Source: Thermococcus sp. JdFR-02
Lineage (GTDB): Archaea > Methanobacteriota_B > Thermococci > Thermococcales > Thermococcaceae
Assembly: GCA_002009975.1 (NCBI GenBank)
Contig: MTLP01000002.1
Coordinates: 1 to 64,000 of the forward strand
Length of the DNA: 64,000 nucleotides
Direction: 5' to 3'
Of the stretch, positions 43,644 to 54,884 are shown piece after piece (position 1 is the stretch's first letter; every line of letters starts with the position of its first letter). Under the pieces are notes generated by a model. It had not been told where the DNA came from. It saw nothing but the letters and a program-made list of their open reading frames with translations, and did no database searches. Both the position numbers and the translations under genes were made by a program.

Positions 43644-44711
43644 ATGCTATTTGATTTGAGACCAAAAGAAAAGAGAGAGGAATTATTTGATAGAGAGAAA
43701 GAGCTTAAAGAGACTCTGGATGCATTTGATAGATATTCCTTAGTTTTGTTACTTGGAATCAGGAGAATTGGCAAAAGTTCACTTCTTCGGGTTGCAATAA
43801 ATGAATCTGAGAATATTGGAATAATAATAGATGCAAGAAAGCTATATCTCAAAGGCAGCCTTAATGAGAGCGCTGTTCTGAATGAAATGGGCAAGATTAA
43901 AGGATACTTCAAAAAGCTGAAGCTCAGAGAAGTTGATCTTAAGTTTTTGAAATTTGATGTAAACAGTAACAAACACTTAGTTGATATATTTGAAGAGCTT
44001 AACAGGCTTGGAGAGAAGAGTGGAAGGAGAATTATCTTAGCATTTGATGAAGCCCAATATCTAAGGTTTTATGGAAACAGGGGCGGGCGTGATTTATTGG
44101 TTCTTTTTGCTTATACCTATGATAATTTGGAAAATATAACACTCGTTTTCACAGGTTCTGAGGTTGGTCTTTTGCACAGCTACTTAAACCTTGAAAATTA
44201 TGAAATGCCATTGTATGGTAGATTAGCAAAAGAGATTACAGTCGAACCTTTTTCTCGGGAGGTTTCATTTGAATTTTTGAGACAGGGATTTAGAGAACTT
44301 GGGATTAATGCTCCAGACCATCACATTGAGCTTGCAATTGATCACTTAGATGGGATTCCCGGGTGGCTTGTAGAATTCGGAACAATTTATGCTGAAACTA
44401 GGAACTTTGAAATATCGCTTGATCAAACATTTAGGAGAGCCAAGAACACAATACACAATGAGATTAGAGAGTTAGAAAAAAGAAGCAATAAATACCGGTT
44501 CGTTTTAAAAGCAATAGCCTTGGGATGGGATAGATGGAAGAACATAAAAGAGTATCTACATGCAAGAAAGATTAGAACCTCCGATTCAAGATTATCCGAG
44601 ATTTTAAGAAATCTTGAGAAGATGGGCTGGATTAAAATGGAGCTTAGGGATGGTAAAAAGGTATACAAGATAATAGATCCAGTTGTGGAACAGATTTTAA
44701 AGGGTGATTAG
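43644..44711 (+). CDS. Archaeal AAA-type ATPase with winged-helix C-terminus
   Basis: A 355-residue protein of the archaeal ATPase (STAND-like AAA) family. The N-terminus carries the family box LFDREKELKETLDAFD; Walker A is GIRRIGKSSLLRVA near residues 37-50 and Walker B RIILAFDEAQYLRF near 130. A sensor-like TGSEVG and an ATPase lid follow; the last 90 residues are a winged helix (SDSRLSEILRNLEKMGWI). Such proteins multiply in Thermococcales; roles are unknown. It diverges from padR, and the next gene begins within two bases of its stop. Confidence 0.88.
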   Translation: MLFDLRPKEKREELFDREKELKETLDAFDRYSLVLLLGIRRIGKSSLLRVAINESENIGIIIDARKLYLKGSLNESAVLNEMGKIKGYFKKLKLREVDLKFLKFDVNSNKHLVDIFEELNRLGEKSGRRIILAFDEAQYLRFYGNRGGRDLLVLFAYTYDNLENITLVFTGSEVGLLHSYLNLENYEMPLYGRLAKEITVEPFSREVSFEFLRQGFRELGINAPDHHIELAIDHLDGIPGWLVEFGTIYAETRNFEISLDQTFRRAKNTIHNEIRELEKRSNKYRFVLKAIALGWDRWKNIKEYLHARKIRTSDSRLSEILRNLEKMGWIKMELRDGKKVYKIIDPVVEQILKGD

Positions 44712-48135: not shown

Positions 48136-49557
48136 ATGGAGAAACCAAAAATAGTTGAAGAGCTTGAGCCTTTCTTTAATCCTAAGGGTGTCGCAATTAT
48201 CGGTGCTACGAATAAAAAAGGAAAAGTCGGTAACGTCATTTTTGAGAACTTTAAAGTGAATAAAGAGAGGGGGATTTTTAAGGGTGAAATCTATCCAGTA
48301 AACCCAAAGCTTGCTGAAATCGATGGGATAAAATGCTATCCTAACGTTAAGAGCCTCCCAGACGGAGTTGACTTAGCAGTTATATCAATTCCAGCGCCTT
48401 TTGTCCCAAACGTTATGAAAGAAATAGCCGAGAAAGGCATTAAAAGAGTTGTAATTATTACAGGTGGATTTGGAGAGCTTGGAGAAGAAGGAAAGAAGCT
48501 TGAGCAGGAGATTCTACAAATAGCAAAGGAAAATGGAATTAGAATTATTGGACCAAACTGTGTTGGTGTTTATGTTCCAGAGACGGGTGTAGATACAGTT
48601 TTCCTTCCAGAAACAAAAATGGATAGACCAACAAGCGGTTCAATCGCCTTCGTTTCTCAAAGTGGTGCATTTGCAGCTGCAATGCTCGATTGGGCTGCAA
48701 TGGCTGGAATAGGAATTGGAAAGATGGTTAGTTATGGAAACAAAATTGACGTTGATGATGCAGACTTAATGGAGTACTTCATGTACGACGACCAAATAAA
48801 GGTGATAACCTTATACATTGAGGGAGTTAAGGATGGAAGGAAGTTTATAGAGGCTGCAAAGAGAGTTACACCTCACAAACCAGTTATAGCTTTAAAGAGT
48901 GGAAGAACAGAGTATGGAGCAAAGGCTGCTTCTTCACATACAGGCTCATTGGCTGGAGCAGATGTTATTTACGATGCTGTATTTAAGCAAACTGGAATTT
49001 TAAGAGCTGAGGACTTTGAGCACATGTTTGATATTGCTAAGGCTTTCGCAAAGTGTAAGCTTCCAAAGGGAGATAGAATTGGAATTATCACTGATGGCGG
49101 TGGAGCTGGAGTTATGGCAAGCGATGCAGTTGCAAAGTTTGGCTTAAAGATGGCTAATCTCAGCGAAGAGACCCTCAAATACTTAAAGGAGAACTTCCCA
49201 CCTCATGCAGTTGCTGGAAATCCAACCGATGTTGTTGGAGATACAGATGCCCAAAGGTACAAAGTTGCAATTGAAGGATTTGTAAATGATCCAAACGTTG
49301 ACGGGATTGTAATAATAACACTATTCCAAGTTCCATTGCTTGATGAAATGGAGCTAATTGAAATTTTAGCCGATTACGCAAAGAAGAGTGAAAAACCAAT
49401 TATTGCAGTTGCTATGGGTGGTAAAAAGACAGAATATTATGCAAAGATTTTAGAAGACAAGGGAGTTCCAGTTTACCCAACCCCCGAGAGAGGAGTTAGA
49501 GCAATGGCTGGTTTGGTTCAATACGCAAAATATTTGGAGAAGGTTGAGGGGGAATGA
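48136..49557 (+). CDS. ADP-forming acyl-CoA synthetase, alpha subunit
   Basis: A 473-residue subunit of the NDP-forming acetyl/acyl-CoA synthetase of Thermococcales, which makes ATP from ADP while converting acyl-CoA to acid in sugar and peptide fermentation. A CoA-binding Rossmann domain begins with PFFNPKGVAIIGATNKKGK; the ligase part has IIGPNCVGVYVP, FVSQSGAFAAAMLDWAA and SSHTGSLAGADVIYDAVF, where His carries the phosphate. ATG 48136 follows GGTGGTGATAAG; the longer frame from 48034 has no ribosome site. The beta subunit gene follows after four bases. Confidence 0.95.
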   Translation: MEKPKIVEELEPFFNPKGVAIIGATNKKGKVGNVIFENFKVNKERGIFKGEIYPVNPKLAEIDGIKCYPNVKSLPDGVDLAVISIPAPFVPNVMKEIAEKGIKRVVIITGGFGELGEEGKKLEQEILQIAKENGIRIIGPNCVGVYVPETGVDTVFLPETKMDRPTSGSIAFVSQSGAFAAAMLDWAAMAGIGIGKMVSYGNKIDVDDADLMEYFMYDDQIKVITLYIEGVKDGRKFIEAAKRVTPHKPVIALKSGRTEYGAKAASSHTGSLAGADVIYDAVFKQTGILRAEDFEHMFDIAKAFAKCKLPKGDRIGIITDGGGAGVMASDAVAKFGLKMANLSEETLKYLKENFPPHAVAGNPTDVVGDTDAQRYKVAIEGFVNDPNVDGIVIITLFQVPLLDEMELIEILADYAKKSEKPIIAVAMGGKKTEYYAKILEDKGVPVYPTPERGVRAMAGLVQYAKYLEKVEGE

Positions 49558-49561
49558 TTTT

Positions 49562-50269
49562 ATGAAAGATGAAGCTTTGAAAGTTATTAATGATGTTTTA
49601 GCTCAAGGTAGGAAGGCTTTAGTTGAATACGAGGCTAAGCAAGTTTTAAAAGCCTATGGCTTACCTTTACCAGATGAAAAGCTGGCAAAAACAGTTGATG
49701 AGGCTTTGGAATATGCCAAAGAAATTGGCTATCCTGTTGTCCTTAAACTCATGTCACCACAAATACTCCACAAAAGCGATGCAAAAGTTATTGCCCTTAA
49801 GATAAAAGATGAGGAAGAGCTAAAGAAAAAGTGGGAAGAAATTCATGAGAATGCCAAAAAGTATAGACCTGATGCAGAGATTTTAGGTGTCTTAGTTGCT
49901 CCAATGCTCAAGCCTGGAAGAGAAATAATCATTGGTATAACTGAGGACCCACAATTTGGACATGCAATAATGTTTGGTCTTGGAGGAATTTTCGTCGAGA
50001 TTCTTAAAGATGTAACCTTCAGAATTATTCCAATTGAAGAGAAAGACGCTTGGACAATGGTAAAGAGCATTAAAGGTTATCCAATCTTGGCTGGAGCAAG
50101 AGGAGAACCACCAGCGGATATGAAAGCAATAGTCGACATGATGCTTAGAGTTTCCCAACTAGTTAATGACTTGGAGGAATACATAAAAGAGATGGACTTG
50201 AACCCAGTTTTCGTTTACAATGAGGGCGAGGGTGCAGTTATAGTCGATGCAAGGATTATTTTGAAGTGA
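49562..50269 (+). CDS. ADP-forming acyl-CoA synthetase, beta subunit
   Basis: A 235-residue ATP-grasp subunit binding ADP and phosphate and carrying the second phosphohistidine. Recognisable are ALVEYEAKQVLKAYGLPLP, YPVVLKLMSPQILHKSDA with the typical His, GREIIIGITEDPQFGHAIMF, GLGGIFVEILKDVTFR, and EMDLNPVFVY near the end. ATG 49562 follows GAGGGGG; the in-frame TTG 49544 is less likely. Subunit lengths (473 and 235) match the heterotetrameric enzymes of Pyrococcus. The gene ends the operon. Confidence 0.95.
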   Translation: MKDEALKVINDVLAQGRKALVEYEAKQVLKAYGLPLPDEKLAKTVDEALEYAKEIGYPVVLKLMSPQILHKSDAKVIALKIKDEEELKKKWEEIHENAKKYRPDAEILGVLVAPMLKPGREIIIGITEDPQFGHAIMFGLGGIFVEILKDVTFRIIPIEEKDAWTMVKSIKGYPILAGARGEPPADMKAIVDMMLRVSQLVNDLEEYIKEMDLNPVFVYNEGEGAVIVDARIILK

Positions 50270-50353
50270 TTTTATTCTTTTCTCTTATCTTTCAATTGAT
50301 TAATTACAAGGATATATAGTTTTGTTTTGAGATGTTATATTGAGGTGTAGATA

Positions 50354-51349
50354 ATGCACCTGAGGTATTACGCCCCTTATTATGATAAAGAAACTCATGA
50401 AAAAATACTAAATTATTTGAAGAACATAAAGAAGGTTCATGATATAGATTATGAAGAAATACCAGTAAAGCCCTGGCCTCCAGAATGGTATTCTAAAAAA
50501 GCCGAAATGTCTGAGGCTTATGTATATGACTACCACCTAAAACCGTATTCAAGTTTGATTTTGTCTAATTGCAACAAGCTAATCCAAATGGGTCTTAATT
50601 TACATTGCGACACAGTTTCTTCTAAATTCAAGAGCAGATCGGGAAATATTTATGTGGCAGGAACAATAGCAGTTGTTGAAAATGATGCAGTATTACTAGC
50701 TCTGGATTATAAAGATGAAATTTTTGAATTTCTGAAAGCTCTATTGAGAGATGGTTGGAATTTATTAAACGTGCTGGAAAAAACAAAGCCAAAAACAATT
50801 GTTCCATTAGAGGAAAGTGAAAAAGAAATAAAACGAGCCTTGATTTTTGCCCTTTCAAAAGATTTTGATTATGTTTTTATGAATGTAAGACAAAATGCTC
50901 CAAGTGGAGATAAGTGGGATCCATTCATAGATTTTTCGCCAGATGCAGACATAATAGCAGTAAATGAAGAAGAGAATCGTATAATAGGGATAGAGGTGAA
51001 AGGATACCGCTCTAATAGGGGATTTACACAAAAGGCGAACATATATGAAGCCATCGGTGAGGCTATGATGTACCTTGTAAATCCATACATAGAGTACAGA
51101 GGAGAAAAGATAGAAGGAAGTATATTTGACAAAGTTTGGCTCTGTTATCCATACAAGAAGGACTTTGAAGACTTCAAAAAGGTAATGAAAATCACGCCAA
51201 TAGGATTGCTTTCAGCTTATGAAGGAGTTGTTAAAGAACCCAAAAAGAATCCTTTTGTTAATGAAAAAGCCAAAGAGATATTCTTGGGAAACCTGAGCAC
51301 ATTTAGAAGTTATATCCGCGGAGGGAAGAAAATGCACAAAATCATTTAA
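50354..51349 (+). CDS. PD-(D/E)XK-type nuclease-like protein
   Basis: A 331-residue protein with the nuclease core pattern SPDADIIAV (D197, D199), then GIEVKGYRSN with E214 and K216, followed by a helix YEAIGEAMMYL of the type seen after the motif in restriction enzymes. Residues 1-160 are an unfamiliar alpha/beta domain. It may cut DNA as an orphan restriction or defence enzyme; no methyltransferase is adjacent. GAGGTG precedes the ATG, and a GATATATAG TATA box lies about 50 bases upstream. Its end overlaps the convergent gene by eight bases. Confidence 0.65.
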   Translation: MHLRYYAPYYDKETHEKILNYLKNIKKVHDIDYEEIPVKPWPPEWYSKKAEMSEAYVYDYHLKPYSSLILSNCNKLIQMGLNLHCDTVSSKFKSRSGNIYVAGTIAVVENDAVLLALDYKDEIFEFLKALLRDGWNLLNVLEKTKPKTIVPLEESEKEIKRALIFALSKDFDYVFMNVRQNAPSGDKWDPFIDFSPDADIIAVNEEENRIIGIEVKGYRSNRGFTQKANIYEAIGEAMMYLVNPYIEYRGEKIEGSIFDKVWLCYPYKKDFEDFKKVMKITPIGLLSAYEGVVKEPKKNPFVNEKAKEIFLGNLSTFRSYIRGGKKMHKII

Positions 51350-51695
51350 TTGCTTCTTTCAATATCTTCTTTGCATCTCTTAGTGTTTTTCTATCAAATT
51401 CTCCTTTCTTTGCAAGGTTAACAAATGCTTCAAATGAGTTTTTAGGCAGAATGTGTTCTAACAGAAAGTATACGCTTCTATACGTCTCTTTTTGCCGTTC
51501 CCATTCGAGCTGATTTAAATAACGTCTAATCTCTCTTTCCCATTGATCGAGGATATCTTCTGTTATGTTATGTCCAAGAATTTCATGAAACCTTTTAAAT
51601 TGCCTTCTGTTGATTTTCACACTTTGTTCTGCTTGTTCAAACTTTATAGTTATCTTAAAACTCTTTTCTTTGTTTTTTGTTATCTCATGAGCCAT
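51342..51695 (-). CDS. Small helical protein linked to the tandem HNH gene
   Basis: A 117-residue protein starting MAHEITKNKEKSF; the frame is open further upstream to 51791, but ATG 51695 lies ten bases after the HNH stop. It begins with a basic strand region (SFKITIKFEQAEQSVKI), then four or five charged helices (EDILDQWEREIRRYLNQLEW, TYRSVYFLLEHIL, RKTLRDAKKILKEAI). No known family is recognised. Its position suggests a partner or control protein for the HNH protein. Its end overlaps the convergent nuclease gene. Confidence 0.5.
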   Translation of the reverse strand: MAHEITKNKEKSFKITIKFEQAEQSVKINRRQFKRFHEILGHNITEDILDQWEREIRRYLNQLEWERQKETYRSVYFLLEHILPKNSFEAFVNLAKKGEFDRKTLRDAKKILKEAIK

Positions 51696-51704
51696 CTTAT
51701 AAAA

Positions 51705-51733
51705 CTCACGATAAAATCGTGTAAAATCGTGAG
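51705..51733 (-). repeat. Hairpin and tandem 10-mer at the HNH/partner gene junction
   Basis: On the plus strand CTCACGAT (51705-51712) and ATCGTGAG (51726-51733) are exact inverted copies; on the coding strand CACGATTTTA is repeated in tandem. The structure covers the HNH stop and ends just upstream of the partner's start codon, so it could influence its translation. Confidence 0.45.
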
Positions 51734-52362
51734 ATGCCTTTGTCCATGTCCTCAACTTTAGCCCAAGAATACATGGAAGAATGAGCTTCACGATGGCATT
51801 GCCTGCATAAAGTGATTAAATTGTTCGGATTATTATTTAGTCTATCATTATCTATATGGTGTACCTCTAAATATCCATATCCACAATCTGAACATCTGTA
51901 ATTATATCTTTCAAGAATGATTTTGCGGAAGGATTCAGTAGTACTTGTGTGTTCTTTCTCTATTTCTTCTTCAATTTCTCTTACCATCTTTTTCGTTAAT
52001 TTGATCAGAATTCTACTTTTAACAGAAAACATGAAGTTATGTGTAATCTCTCTTTGGATTCTATTTTTAAAATTCTCAACAACTTCTTCAAAGTTAGTAT
52101 TCACGAGTATTTCGATGGGTTTTTCAAAGAGTTCATTAAAGAAATTCCCAAGAACAGGTTTAATCTCTCTTAGTTTCTTATTTTGGTGAAGTTTGTAATG
52201 ACACTGTCTGCATAGAACTATCAAGTTTTCTAAATCCCTATTTTCAACATCTCCATCCTTATAGTGGATATCAAGATAATTGTAATCACAATTTTGGCAC
52301 TTATACCCATCTCTTTTCAAAATCTTTTTCCTAATATGGGGTGGTACTCCATCATTTCCCAT
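51706..52362 (-). CDS. Tandem HNH endonuclease-type protein, first copy degenerate
   Basis: A 218-residue protein with two HNH (ββα-metal) domains. The N-terminal copy (about 17-60) has zinc cysteines C22, C25, C51 and C54, but IHYKD gives H33-Y34. The C-terminal copy (about 150-195) has cysteines C157, C160, C186 and C189 and an intact VHHID (H168-H169), N181 and LCRQCHREAH. The second His of the HH pair is the general base in HNH enzymes, so the first copy is probably inactive and only binds DNA. A helical linker joins them. ATG 52362 follows GAGGG; a TTG at 52389 is in frame. Confidence 0.75.
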   Translation of the reverse strand: MGNDGVPPHIRKKILKRDGYKCQNCDYNYLDIHYKDGDVENRDLENLIVLCRQCHYKLHQNKKLREIKPVLGNFFNELFEKPIEILVNTNFEEVVENFKNRIQREITHNFMFSVKSRILIKLTKKMVREIEEEIEKEHTSTTESFRKIILERYNYRCSDCGYGYLEVHHIDNDRLNNNPNNLITLCRQCHREAHSSMYSWAKVEDMDKGISRFYTILS

Positions 52363-52391
52363 AAACCCTCGCCTTGAATTAATATTCAAAG

Positions 52392-52524
52392 ACGCTCATC
52401 TATTTATTGTGACTGAAAGGTTTTAAGTTTTCTTCCTGAGTGGAGTTATTTGGACTTTCTGGCGTTGATTTGAATGTGGAAATGGTTTTCGGAACTAATA
52501 TCAGCCAAATACGTAGATGAGCGT
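52392..52524. repeat. Perfect 11-bp inverted repeat beside the nuclease island
   Basis: ACGCTCATCTA (52392-52402) and TAGATGAGCGT (52514-52524) are exact inverted copies flanking 111 bases upstream of the HNH gene. This could be a small mobile element, an end of an inserted segment, or a binding site pair. The interval and the bases to 52717 hold no clear gene. Confidence 0.5.
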
Positions 52525-52639
52525 ACGATCTATTTTTGGAAAAAAGGAGCGAGAAGATAGCCAACGAAATCATTAAAAGGGTTAAAGGTACAGAAAATTG
52601 ATCTGTAACAACAGTAGTTGTTTTGTGATGCTCCTTCAT
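52400..52639 (-). pseudogene. Possible remnant of a surface-protein C-terminal anchor
   Basis: A 79-codon frame reads HHKTTTVVTDQFSVPLTLLM, then ISLAIFSLLFSKNR: a threonine-rich segment, a single membrane helix and basic residues, as at the end of archaeal surface proteins. It has no ribosome site before its ATG and the frame opens only after a TAA. Probably a fragment or chance. Confidence 0.25.
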
Positions 52640-52717
52640 TTTTGTATCAGGAACACTTAGCAGAATAATTCAACTAAATATCTTTCATTCGAGCTTTTCT
52701 CTTTTTGTGAGTATCCT

Positions 52718-53773
52718 TTACTCACTACATTCTAAGACCTTTGGCTTTTCTCCTAACAACTCTGCAGCAGTTAAAACTCTCTTATTGAGCCTTTCTCCAG
52801 CTTCCCAAACTTCTTTTGTATGCTCCTTAAAGTGAACTTCTCTCGGCAAGTGATGATCATAAATTATTACTTCCGCATCAATGCCCTTCACTATCTTCAC
52901 CGCATTATCTACTGCTCTCCTCAAATTGGTCTTGTTGAGAAGATAACCGAGCATATAAGTCATAGGACCGTCTAAGATGAGCACGTTTGGGTTTTCTTTA
53001 ATTATCCACTCCGCATAGTCTTCTATTATTGGACCATTTAAATCGCTCGAATGAATTAGCTTTTCATCTTCATATTCAACCACAGTTGCAAAAACCCACC
53101 CAACCCTAGAAAACTCAATTCCATGGAATAGAGGGTTTGTAAACCTAACTTTGGTTTCTCCAAATTGAAATTCTCTTCCATCAGCAAAGAAAACTTGCAA
53201 ATTTTTAAATTTCATTTCAGGAATTTTGGGGCTGTTGTTCCACTTTTTAGTTCTATTTTTGAACCATTTGAAACCTTTCTCAAGCAACTGTTTCCTTCTC
53301 ACATTATAATCTCCAAAGTCTTTGCTTCTTGCTATGGGAAGTTCATCCATTGGATTTGAGTACTCCTTAGCTTTGGTTTCTTCTATTATGTTCTCCAATT
53401 TTGCGTCTCCAAAATGTTCGCAGAGATTTGAATAAAAAGCCTCAGCCCTCTTCCTTTGTGAATCGTTTATGTATTCGTTTGGATTCTTAGCGAGGAGTAT
53501 CTTTCCTCTATAAATCTCCATATTATGGGGAAAGTAGTGGTCGTAGTGATAGTGGGAGATAATGATAACATCAGCTTTTTCGCTTGCTTTTATTATCGCT
53601 TCTTCTCCCTCAACCAACCACTTGATCTTTTCTTCTTCACTTGCTGGAAAGCTTGGATGCATAACAGCAATTCCTGGATCAATTAGAACTGAAACATCTG
53701 GAGTTTTAACTAGTACGCAAGAGCTTTTAGCACCTAAAGAATCGAACCATATTGGTCTAAAGGAGAGCTTCAT
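52718..53773 (-). CDS. Metallo-beta-lactamase-fold hydrolase (UPF0282 type)
   Basis: A 351-residue MBL-fold protein with the metal motif SHYHYDHYFPHN near residue 80 and further ligands in NPLFHGIEF, IHSSDLNGP and YDHHLPREVHF. The DSLGAKSSCVLVKTPDVSVLIDPGIAVMHP N-terminus in pieces matches the archaeal UPF0282 family. Relatives act on nucleic acids or small molecules; the substrate of this branch is not known. The frame is intact and of usual length. It precedes an MFS gene on the same strand with 16 bases between. Confidence 0.88.
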   Translation of the reverse strand: MKLSFRPIWFDSLGAKSSCVLVKTPDVSVLIDPGIAVMHPSFPASEEEKIKWLVEGEEAIIKASEKADVIIISHYHYDHYFPHNMEIYRGKILLAKNPNEYINDSQRKRAEAFYSNLCEHFGDAKLENIIEETKAKEYSNPMDELPIARSKDFGDYNVRRKQLLEKGFKWFKNRTKKWNNSPKIPEMKFKNLQVFFADGREFQFGETKVRFTNPLFHGIEFSRVGWVFATVVEYEDEKLIHSSDLNGPIIEDYAEWIIKENPNVLILDGPMTYMLGYLLNKTNLRRAVDNAVKIVKGIDAEVIIYDHHLPREVHFKEHTKEVWEAGERLNKRVLTAAELLGEKPKVLECSE

Positions 53774-53789
53774 GTTATGAAATTACACT

Positions 53790-54884
53790 CTAAGATTTAA
53801 ATCTTAACCTCATCAAAAACACTCCTAAAGCCAAAATCCCAAAAATTCCTACAAATACGAATCCAAGCTTAAAGCCTAGAAACCCAACTACAATTGGTCC
53901 CAAAGCCTGCCCTATATCCTTTATGCTCTCCAAAAAGCCCAAAGCAGTTCCCTTAAGCTTTGAGATTTCAGTTGCTAATGGTTTGGTTGAGGCTTCACTT
54001 ATTGAAGCACCCAAGGAAAATAAAACCGCCCCAGCAATTATGAAGATCAGAGACTTAGAGAAGGCAAGTAAAAGCATGGCTAAGCTAACCAAGAACATTC
54101 CTAAAGCTATAGGCTTTATCCTCCCAATTTTGTCGCTCAAATAACCAGCATAAGGTTTTACAACTGCCATTATTGAAATCTCTATCGTTAAAATTAATCC
54201 AGAGAGCCAGGCTTTGTTTTCCAAAAAGTAGAAGAGGGGCAAAAAGGTTTCTATGCTTTGATAAGCCATGTAAACTGAGGCATCTAATAAGCCAAGCAAA
54301 AGCAAATCAAAGCTGAATGAGAATTCAAATCTCCTCAATTCTTTTCCAGCATCTGGAAAAGTGAAGGTTAAAGCGAGAACTATGAATCCAAAGAGAGAAC
54401 AAAGAAGAAAAACAATCCAAAAGCCAGCAAAGTAAATTAGAGTTCCAGCCAAAAGAGGTGCAAAAGCTCTTCCTATGAGTGTGGAAGAGCTTAGAATCCC
54501 CATAAACGTGCCTTTCCTCTCTGGAAATAGATCGCTTATTAAAGCCAAAGAAACTGGAACAAATATAGCTGTTGCAATTCCATAGTATGCTCTAACTAAA
54601 GCTAAAACCAGTGCATCTTTTGCAAGAAAGTAAAGGAGAGGAGCAGAGAAAAACACAAAGCCACTAATCTTTAACAACTTTTTCCTTCCATAAATGTCGC
54701 TCAAGAGTCCAGAAGCAAAGTTAACAAAGATTCCAGTTATCGTTGATGCTGAAGCAACTAATCCAATTTCGCCCTTTGTTAAGCCTAAGCTTTTGGCATA
54801 GAGTGGTAAAGTTGGGGATTTACTCATTGTTGAGCCGAGTATTGCAAAGAATCCCGCAACTAAGATGAGGTAGAGCTTTCTCAT
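53790..54884 (-). CDS. Major facilitator superfamily transporter
   Basis: A 364-residue protein with about 11-12 membrane segments. The loop FASGLLSDIYGRKKLLKISG after segment 2 and the similar YAGYLSDKIGRIKPIAL after segment 8 are the two MFS signature loops of multidrug-type exporters. Substrate unknown. No ribosome site precedes the ATG; a TTTTTATTTT box about 28 bases upstream suggests a leaderless mRNA. The MBL-fold gene follows on the same strand, probably in the same transcript. Confidence 0.87.
   Translation of the reverse strand: MRKLYLILVAGFFAILGSTMSKSPTLPLYAKSLGLTKGEIGLVASASTITGIFVNFASGLLSDIYGRKKLLKISGFVFFSAPLLYFLAKDALVLALVRAYYGIATAIFVPVSLALISDLFPERKGTFMGILSSSTLIGRAFAPLLAGTLIYFAGFWIVFLLCSLFGFIVLALTFTFPDAGKELRRFEFSFSFDLLLLGLLDASVYMAYQSIETFLPLFYFLENKAWLSGLILTIEISIMAVVKPYAGYLSDKIGRIKPIALGMFLVSLAMLLLAFSKSLIFIIAGAVLFSLGASISEASTKPLATEISKLKGTALGFLESIKDIGQALGPIVVGFLGFKLGFVFVGIFGILALGVFLMRLRFKS

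Follow-up and report, generated by a model that had tools for sequence, protein, structure and literature searches.

The window analysed here, a stretch of 64,000 nucleotides from Thermococcus sp. JdFR-02 (contig MTLP01000002.1 of a 2.36 Mb draft genome in 44 contigs, hereafter G000), carries two predicted nuclease genes that face each other tail to tail. On the forward strand, an intact open reading frame (ORF) at 50354-51349 encodes a putative PD-(D/E)XK protein of 331 aa. The reverse strand holds a 227-aa ORF with two HNH motifs (51706-52389) and a 149-aa ORF (51342-51791). We recovered all three frames with the boundaries given in the original prediction, as well as the overlap of exactly 8 bases (51342-51349) between the PD-(D/E)XK and HNH sides. 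This overlap is not conserved: in G093, a genome from another genus with the same convergent pair, the two stop codons simply abut. The statement that no methyltransferase lies nearby agrees with the neighbouring ORFs examined in the window and in G093, among which none was recognised. An Rfam search of the region did not find a non-coding RNA, and a test for a toxin-antitoxin operon found no co-directional small partner gene, the two genes being convergent.

The 149-aa ORF had been taken for a small helical partner of the HNH protein. It is actually the 3' tail of the HNH gene, split off by a short duplication in this assembly. Separate searches of 94 family genomes with the ORFs of 227 and 149 aa led to the same, single strong match outside G000, a G093 frame of 350 codons. 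There, one 336-aa ORF (L021:7460-8470) spans both window pieces and is 78% identical to the 5' part and about 70-72% identical to the 3' part. The 149-aa ORF matches residues 199-336 of this protein, where it lies in the same frame as the HNH part, and its first 20-odd codons are HNH sequence read out of frame. DNA alignment reveals a 10-bp tandem duplication at 51712-51731 (TAAAATCGTG twice on the forward strand) that is present as a single copy in G093. The extra 10 bp do not make up whole codons, so the reading frame changes immediately past the second HNH repeat, and the product as assembled would keep both repeats and lose the helical C-terminal region. The whole, disrupted gene of ~336-346 aa occupies 51342-52389 on the reverse strand; ATG 52362 is its likely start, TTG 52389 being also open. 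Weak matches of the 149-aa ORF to DUF7570 and phrog_1475 were dropped because the G093 counterpart matches neither.

The HNH assignment is supported by Pfam HNH (37.4 bits in the window and 40.0 bits in G093, for a cut-off of 21.4). With the HNH endonucleases among its matches, of IscB, ZorE and McrA type, the protein shares two CxxC...CxxCH zinc-binding repeats. It differs from them by the tandem arrangement with a degenerate first copy and by a helical region at its C-terminus, which within the family is limited to two genomes. The catalytic HH is not found in each repeat: repeat 1 reads IHY or VHY (IHY in the window) in place of VHH, whereas repeat 2 keeps VHH. From what is generally known of HNH catalysis, a protein with an IHY/VHY repeat is expected to hold at most one active site. 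On these motifs, repeat 1 is probably catalytically dead and repeat 2 intact, leaving no more than one active site. Membership of IscB (61.1 bits against an NCBIfam cut-off of 175) and of the Zorya component ZorE (49.9 bits against 600) was rejected. The full HNH gene occurs in two of the 94 family genomes; in G008, a small self-made search gave a weak HNH-like match (E 4e-4) that is probably due to chance.

The exact 11-bp inverted repeat reported beside the genes (ACGCTCATCTA/TAGATGAGCGT at 52392-52402/52514-52524) is present, and belongs to a miniature element instead of marking the border of an island. Judged by sequence, the 133 bp at 52392-52524 are a MITE derived from an IS1595-type element, with terminal inverted repeats of 11 bp that are perfect (17 bp at 88%). 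Matches to positions 52394-52525 are numerous in other Thermococcales; in several of them, the left part of the query aligns with one end, and the right part with the other end, of a longer element (~0.96 kb in G011:C3, ~0.85 kb in G070:C4 and ~0.94 kb in G081). The terminal inverted repeats are common to the MITE and the full-length element, and the long G011 copy encodes a transposase fragment with a Zn_ribbon_IS1595 domain (39 bits, cut-off 25.4). A 139-bp copy in G084 resembles the window MITE. Compared with IS1595-family elements, the window copy is internally deleted to 133 bp, and a target-site duplication is not visible at its flanks (52391/52525). The MITE is located on the 5' side of the HNH gene without delimiting the gene pair, and is missing from G093 in the DNA alignment; it is unrelated to the pair. 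The three-component module originally proposed is thus reduced to two genes, the small partner being the HNH tail and the inverted repeat the ends of a MITE. When a single genome is read, a frameshift and a MITE can pass for extra components of a module.

Several IS1595-type copies, end fragments and short derivatives occur in G070, G081 and G084; in G000, no copy other than the window MITE was found. Positions 52525-52717, which separate the MITE from the next gene, resemble the tail of a lost gene, and weak matches to ~52551-52581 occur in four other genomes.

The PD-(D/E)XK protein consists of two domains. Its N-terminal domain (residues 1-144, 50354-50785 on the forward strand) is unnamed in Pfam and NCBIfam and is predicted to adopt a thioredoxin-like fold. 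The AlphaFold2 model of these ~140 aa, built from a 24-row alignment, reaches a pLDDT of 95.6 and a pTM of 0.89, and displays the b-a-b-a-b-b-a order of the thioredoxin topology. Its best PDB match is thioredoxin 6mos (Foldseek probability 0.92, E 0.046); many of its PDB matches are thioredoxin-fold proteins, which recur among the weaker ones, with none at E <0.001. Compared with thioredoxin, the model has APYYD in place of CxxC and a long insert between b2 and a2. The redox CxxC is missing from all 24 aligned sequences.

The C-terminal half (50795-51346, forward strand) carries the expected signature of the PD-(D/E)XK superfamily: an upstream acidic helix with E154/E156, the motif PDAD199 followed by E214-V-K216 (D-x(14)-E-x-K), and a following helix with Y231-EAIGE. 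All these residues are invariant in the five intact Thermococcales copies. The methanogen-like sequences L087 and L138 share the combination of D-x(n)-E-x-K with EA(I/L)G(Q/E), and the methanogen relative (L102/L138) matches PDDEXK_9 at 0.0015, below the cut-off, and Cas4 at 0.0017. We base the PD-(D/E)XK call of the original prediction on these motifs and on homologues, and the putative fold of the C-terminal half on the motifs and the weak matches of the methanogen relative.

Model libraries were of little help: the window protein has no convincing match among Pfam, NCBIfam, PHROG and PADLOC models, a search of the defence library with the protein itself gave no match, and sequence searches of the PDB returned nothing useful. 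In a full-length model from five near-identical sequences, the catalytic domain has a pLDDT of about 30-40. At this low confidence, its elements (H, helix; E, strand) are H152-167, E200-204, E209-214, H225-241 and E260-263, which would be compatible with the abbbab core of the superfamily; a fold search with this model was uninformative. An hhalign comparison of the Thermococcales with the methanogen and haloarchaeal nuclease domains was not significant. What sets the window protein apart within the superfamily is its fusion to an unnamed thioredoxin-fold N-terminal domain. We found no literature on this architecture.

The N-terminal domain extends well beyond Thermococcales. A relative 50% identical to it is encoded in a Methanosarcinaceae MAG (L087), another in a second methanogen-like genome (G257, L138), and others in 29 of the 294 sampled genomes (about 10%) of a haloarchaeal class. 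Its partner is a PD-(D/E)XK domain in Thermococcales, L087 and L138. The partner domain of L130/L131 aligns with these nuclease domains but has QTAK in place of EGK. The common haloarchaeal form, of 164-167 aa, joins the N-terminal domain to a zinc ribbon. A further fusion is that with a SWIM zinc-finger protein (L107:6001-8508, L132 and L133), a form also found on a plasmid; the L132 fusion matches the PADLOC candidate PDC-S62 at 3e-19. Related small genes of ~160 aa precede the gene for the thioredoxin-like/PD-(D/E)XK protein in L087 (9454-9942, directly upstream) and in L102 (5045-5530, with one gene between), and could be a conserved partner in methanogen-like genomes. With the PD-(D/E)XK protein comes a domain architecture that is unnamed, ranges from hyperthermophiles to haloarchaea and was missed by the family libraries searched. 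The protein also offers a thermostable test case for what a non-redox thioredoxin fold does on a nuclease.

Within the family, homologues of the PD-(D/E)XK protein are patchily distributed (8 of 94 genomes), and the intact copies are 76-81% identical to each other. The convergent pair lies in both G000 and G093 between the same flanking genes, which encode a metallo-beta-lactamase and the acetyl-CoA-synthetase (ACD) beta subunit. In G091 and G092 the same two genes stand 5-12 bp apart, giving precise empty sites; this comparison with relatives lacking the pair supports an accessory, not a core, region. In other species the same junction (window 49500-53800; L059, L060, L061-L065) holds a SnoaL-like gene or a second metallo-beta-lactamase gene, which indicates a permissive site. 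A third case, G074, has the PD-(D/E)XK gene adjoining the same beta gene. Past its stop codon, an 80-bp stretch in convergent orientation shares 89% identity with the last part of the HNH gene, so an HNH gene was once there and has since been lost. In G078 and G081, the metallo-beta-lactamase gene of the flank is interrupted and reads as two frames.

The PD-(D/E)XK gene also occurs alone. In G082 it closely follows an integrase gene of archaeal phage type (Phage_integr_3), and in G011, G010 and G008 beside tRNA-Leu(CAG), the G010 and G008 copies being broken. Single homologues in unrelated contexts had been named beforehand, together with a core location, as evidence against an accessory module, so that the first half of this objection applies and the second does not. 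A search of viral contigs, phages and plasmids with the full PD-(D/E)XK protein found no relative.

The pair has apparently moved between lineages. Between the window and G093, identity at synonymous third positions is 0.73 [0.68-0.79] for the PD-(D/E)XK gene and 0.75 and 0.73 for the two HNH parts, against 0.44-0.56 for seven flanking genes. For unrelated third bases, the expected agreement also differs, at 0.48-0.57 in the island genes and 0.41-0.45 in the flanking ones; composition therefore explains part of this gap, and only part. By NG86, dS is 0.7-1.0 for the island genes and from 1.6 to saturated for the flanks. Since both island genes are less diverged than their flanks at synonymous positions, they probably moved together after the lineages split; co-transfer is thus supported, with the caveat of codon composition. 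The pair is an AT-rich unit, and the PD-(D/E)XK gene has a GC content of 35-37% in loci of 37-44%. Its dN/dS of about 0.05-0.15 (NG86, five intact copies) implies a protein maintained by purifying selection, while the broken copies in G008 and G010 indicate that the gene is dispensable.

The locus had been described as a possible defence or mobile-element module. The mobile part of this description stands, as a mobile accessory unit of two nucleases, on the empty sites, the co-transfer, the G093 pair and the G074 relic. The defence part is an inference. The account we favour, tentatively, is that of a mobile AT-rich convergent nuclease pair in which the PD-(D/E)XK protein is a stand-alone defence nuclease and the HNH protein an auxiliary or mobility nuclease. 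We prefer an accessory nuclease directed against foreign DNA in view of the patchy distribution, the mobility, the selection pattern and the other partners of the N-terminal domain (the SWIM fusion matching PDC-S62). We infer that the thioredoxin-like domain would be a binding module that chooses a partner or a target, after which the PD-(D/E)XK domain would cut the invading DNA, without a cognate methyltransferase. The PD-(D/E)XK gene would stay under purifying selection, while the HNH gene would be readily lost. No known defence system was recognised among the flanks examined.

Alternatively, the two nucleases might serve their own spread without benefit to the host, through a homing-like cut of the empty site followed by repair from the filled copy. 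The insertion point, the junction between the ACD-beta and metallo-beta-lactamase genes, is indeed the same in three genera; HNH is a typical fold of homing nucleases, both genes were probably co-transferred, empty sites exist and the HNH gene decays fast. We nevertheless consider a selfish pair unlikely: the solo PD-(D/E)XK genes occupy other, unrelated sites, the island is intergenic and interrupts no conserved target, and the junction, with its other genes in other species, may be merely permissive. Persistent purifying selection on the PD-(D/E)XK protein also suggests a use of its own.

Somewhat less probable still is that two unrelated accessory genes share a permissive site by chance, their convergence having no functional meaning. 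This would agree with the presence of the PD-(D/E)XK gene alone in four other family genomes and two other contexts. However, G000 and G093 have the same arrangement, the two genes having diverged equally at synonymous sites, and the HNH relic lies at the same position in G074, which argues that the two genes have at times, if not always, moved as a pair. Least likely, in our view, is a housekeeping-type accessory nuclease that processes DNA such as repair or recombination intermediates and docks through its thioredoxin-like domain: the superfamily does include resolvases and repair nucleases (PMC1913061), dN/dS is low and, on one haloarchaeal plasmid, a helicase and DUF790 pair is found close to the zinc-ribbon form, but the gene is missing from 86 of the 94 family genomes, is repeatedly broken and moves horizontally.

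Extending the favoured reading of an anti-invader nuclease, the redox-dead thioredoxin fold might be a recognition module shared by mobile anti-invader effectors across Euryarchaeota, an idea we regard as doubtful. The effectors would be PD-(D/E)XK domains in Thermococcales and methanogens, and altered nuclease-like domains, zinc ribbons or SWIM domains in haloarchaea. If so, the Thermococcales gene would be a member of an undescribed defence family. Elsewhere in the window, positions 43644-44711 encode an archaeal ATPase_2 protein that ends in an MCM_C winged-helix domain and matches the PADLOC candidate PDC-S27 at 1.8e-11.
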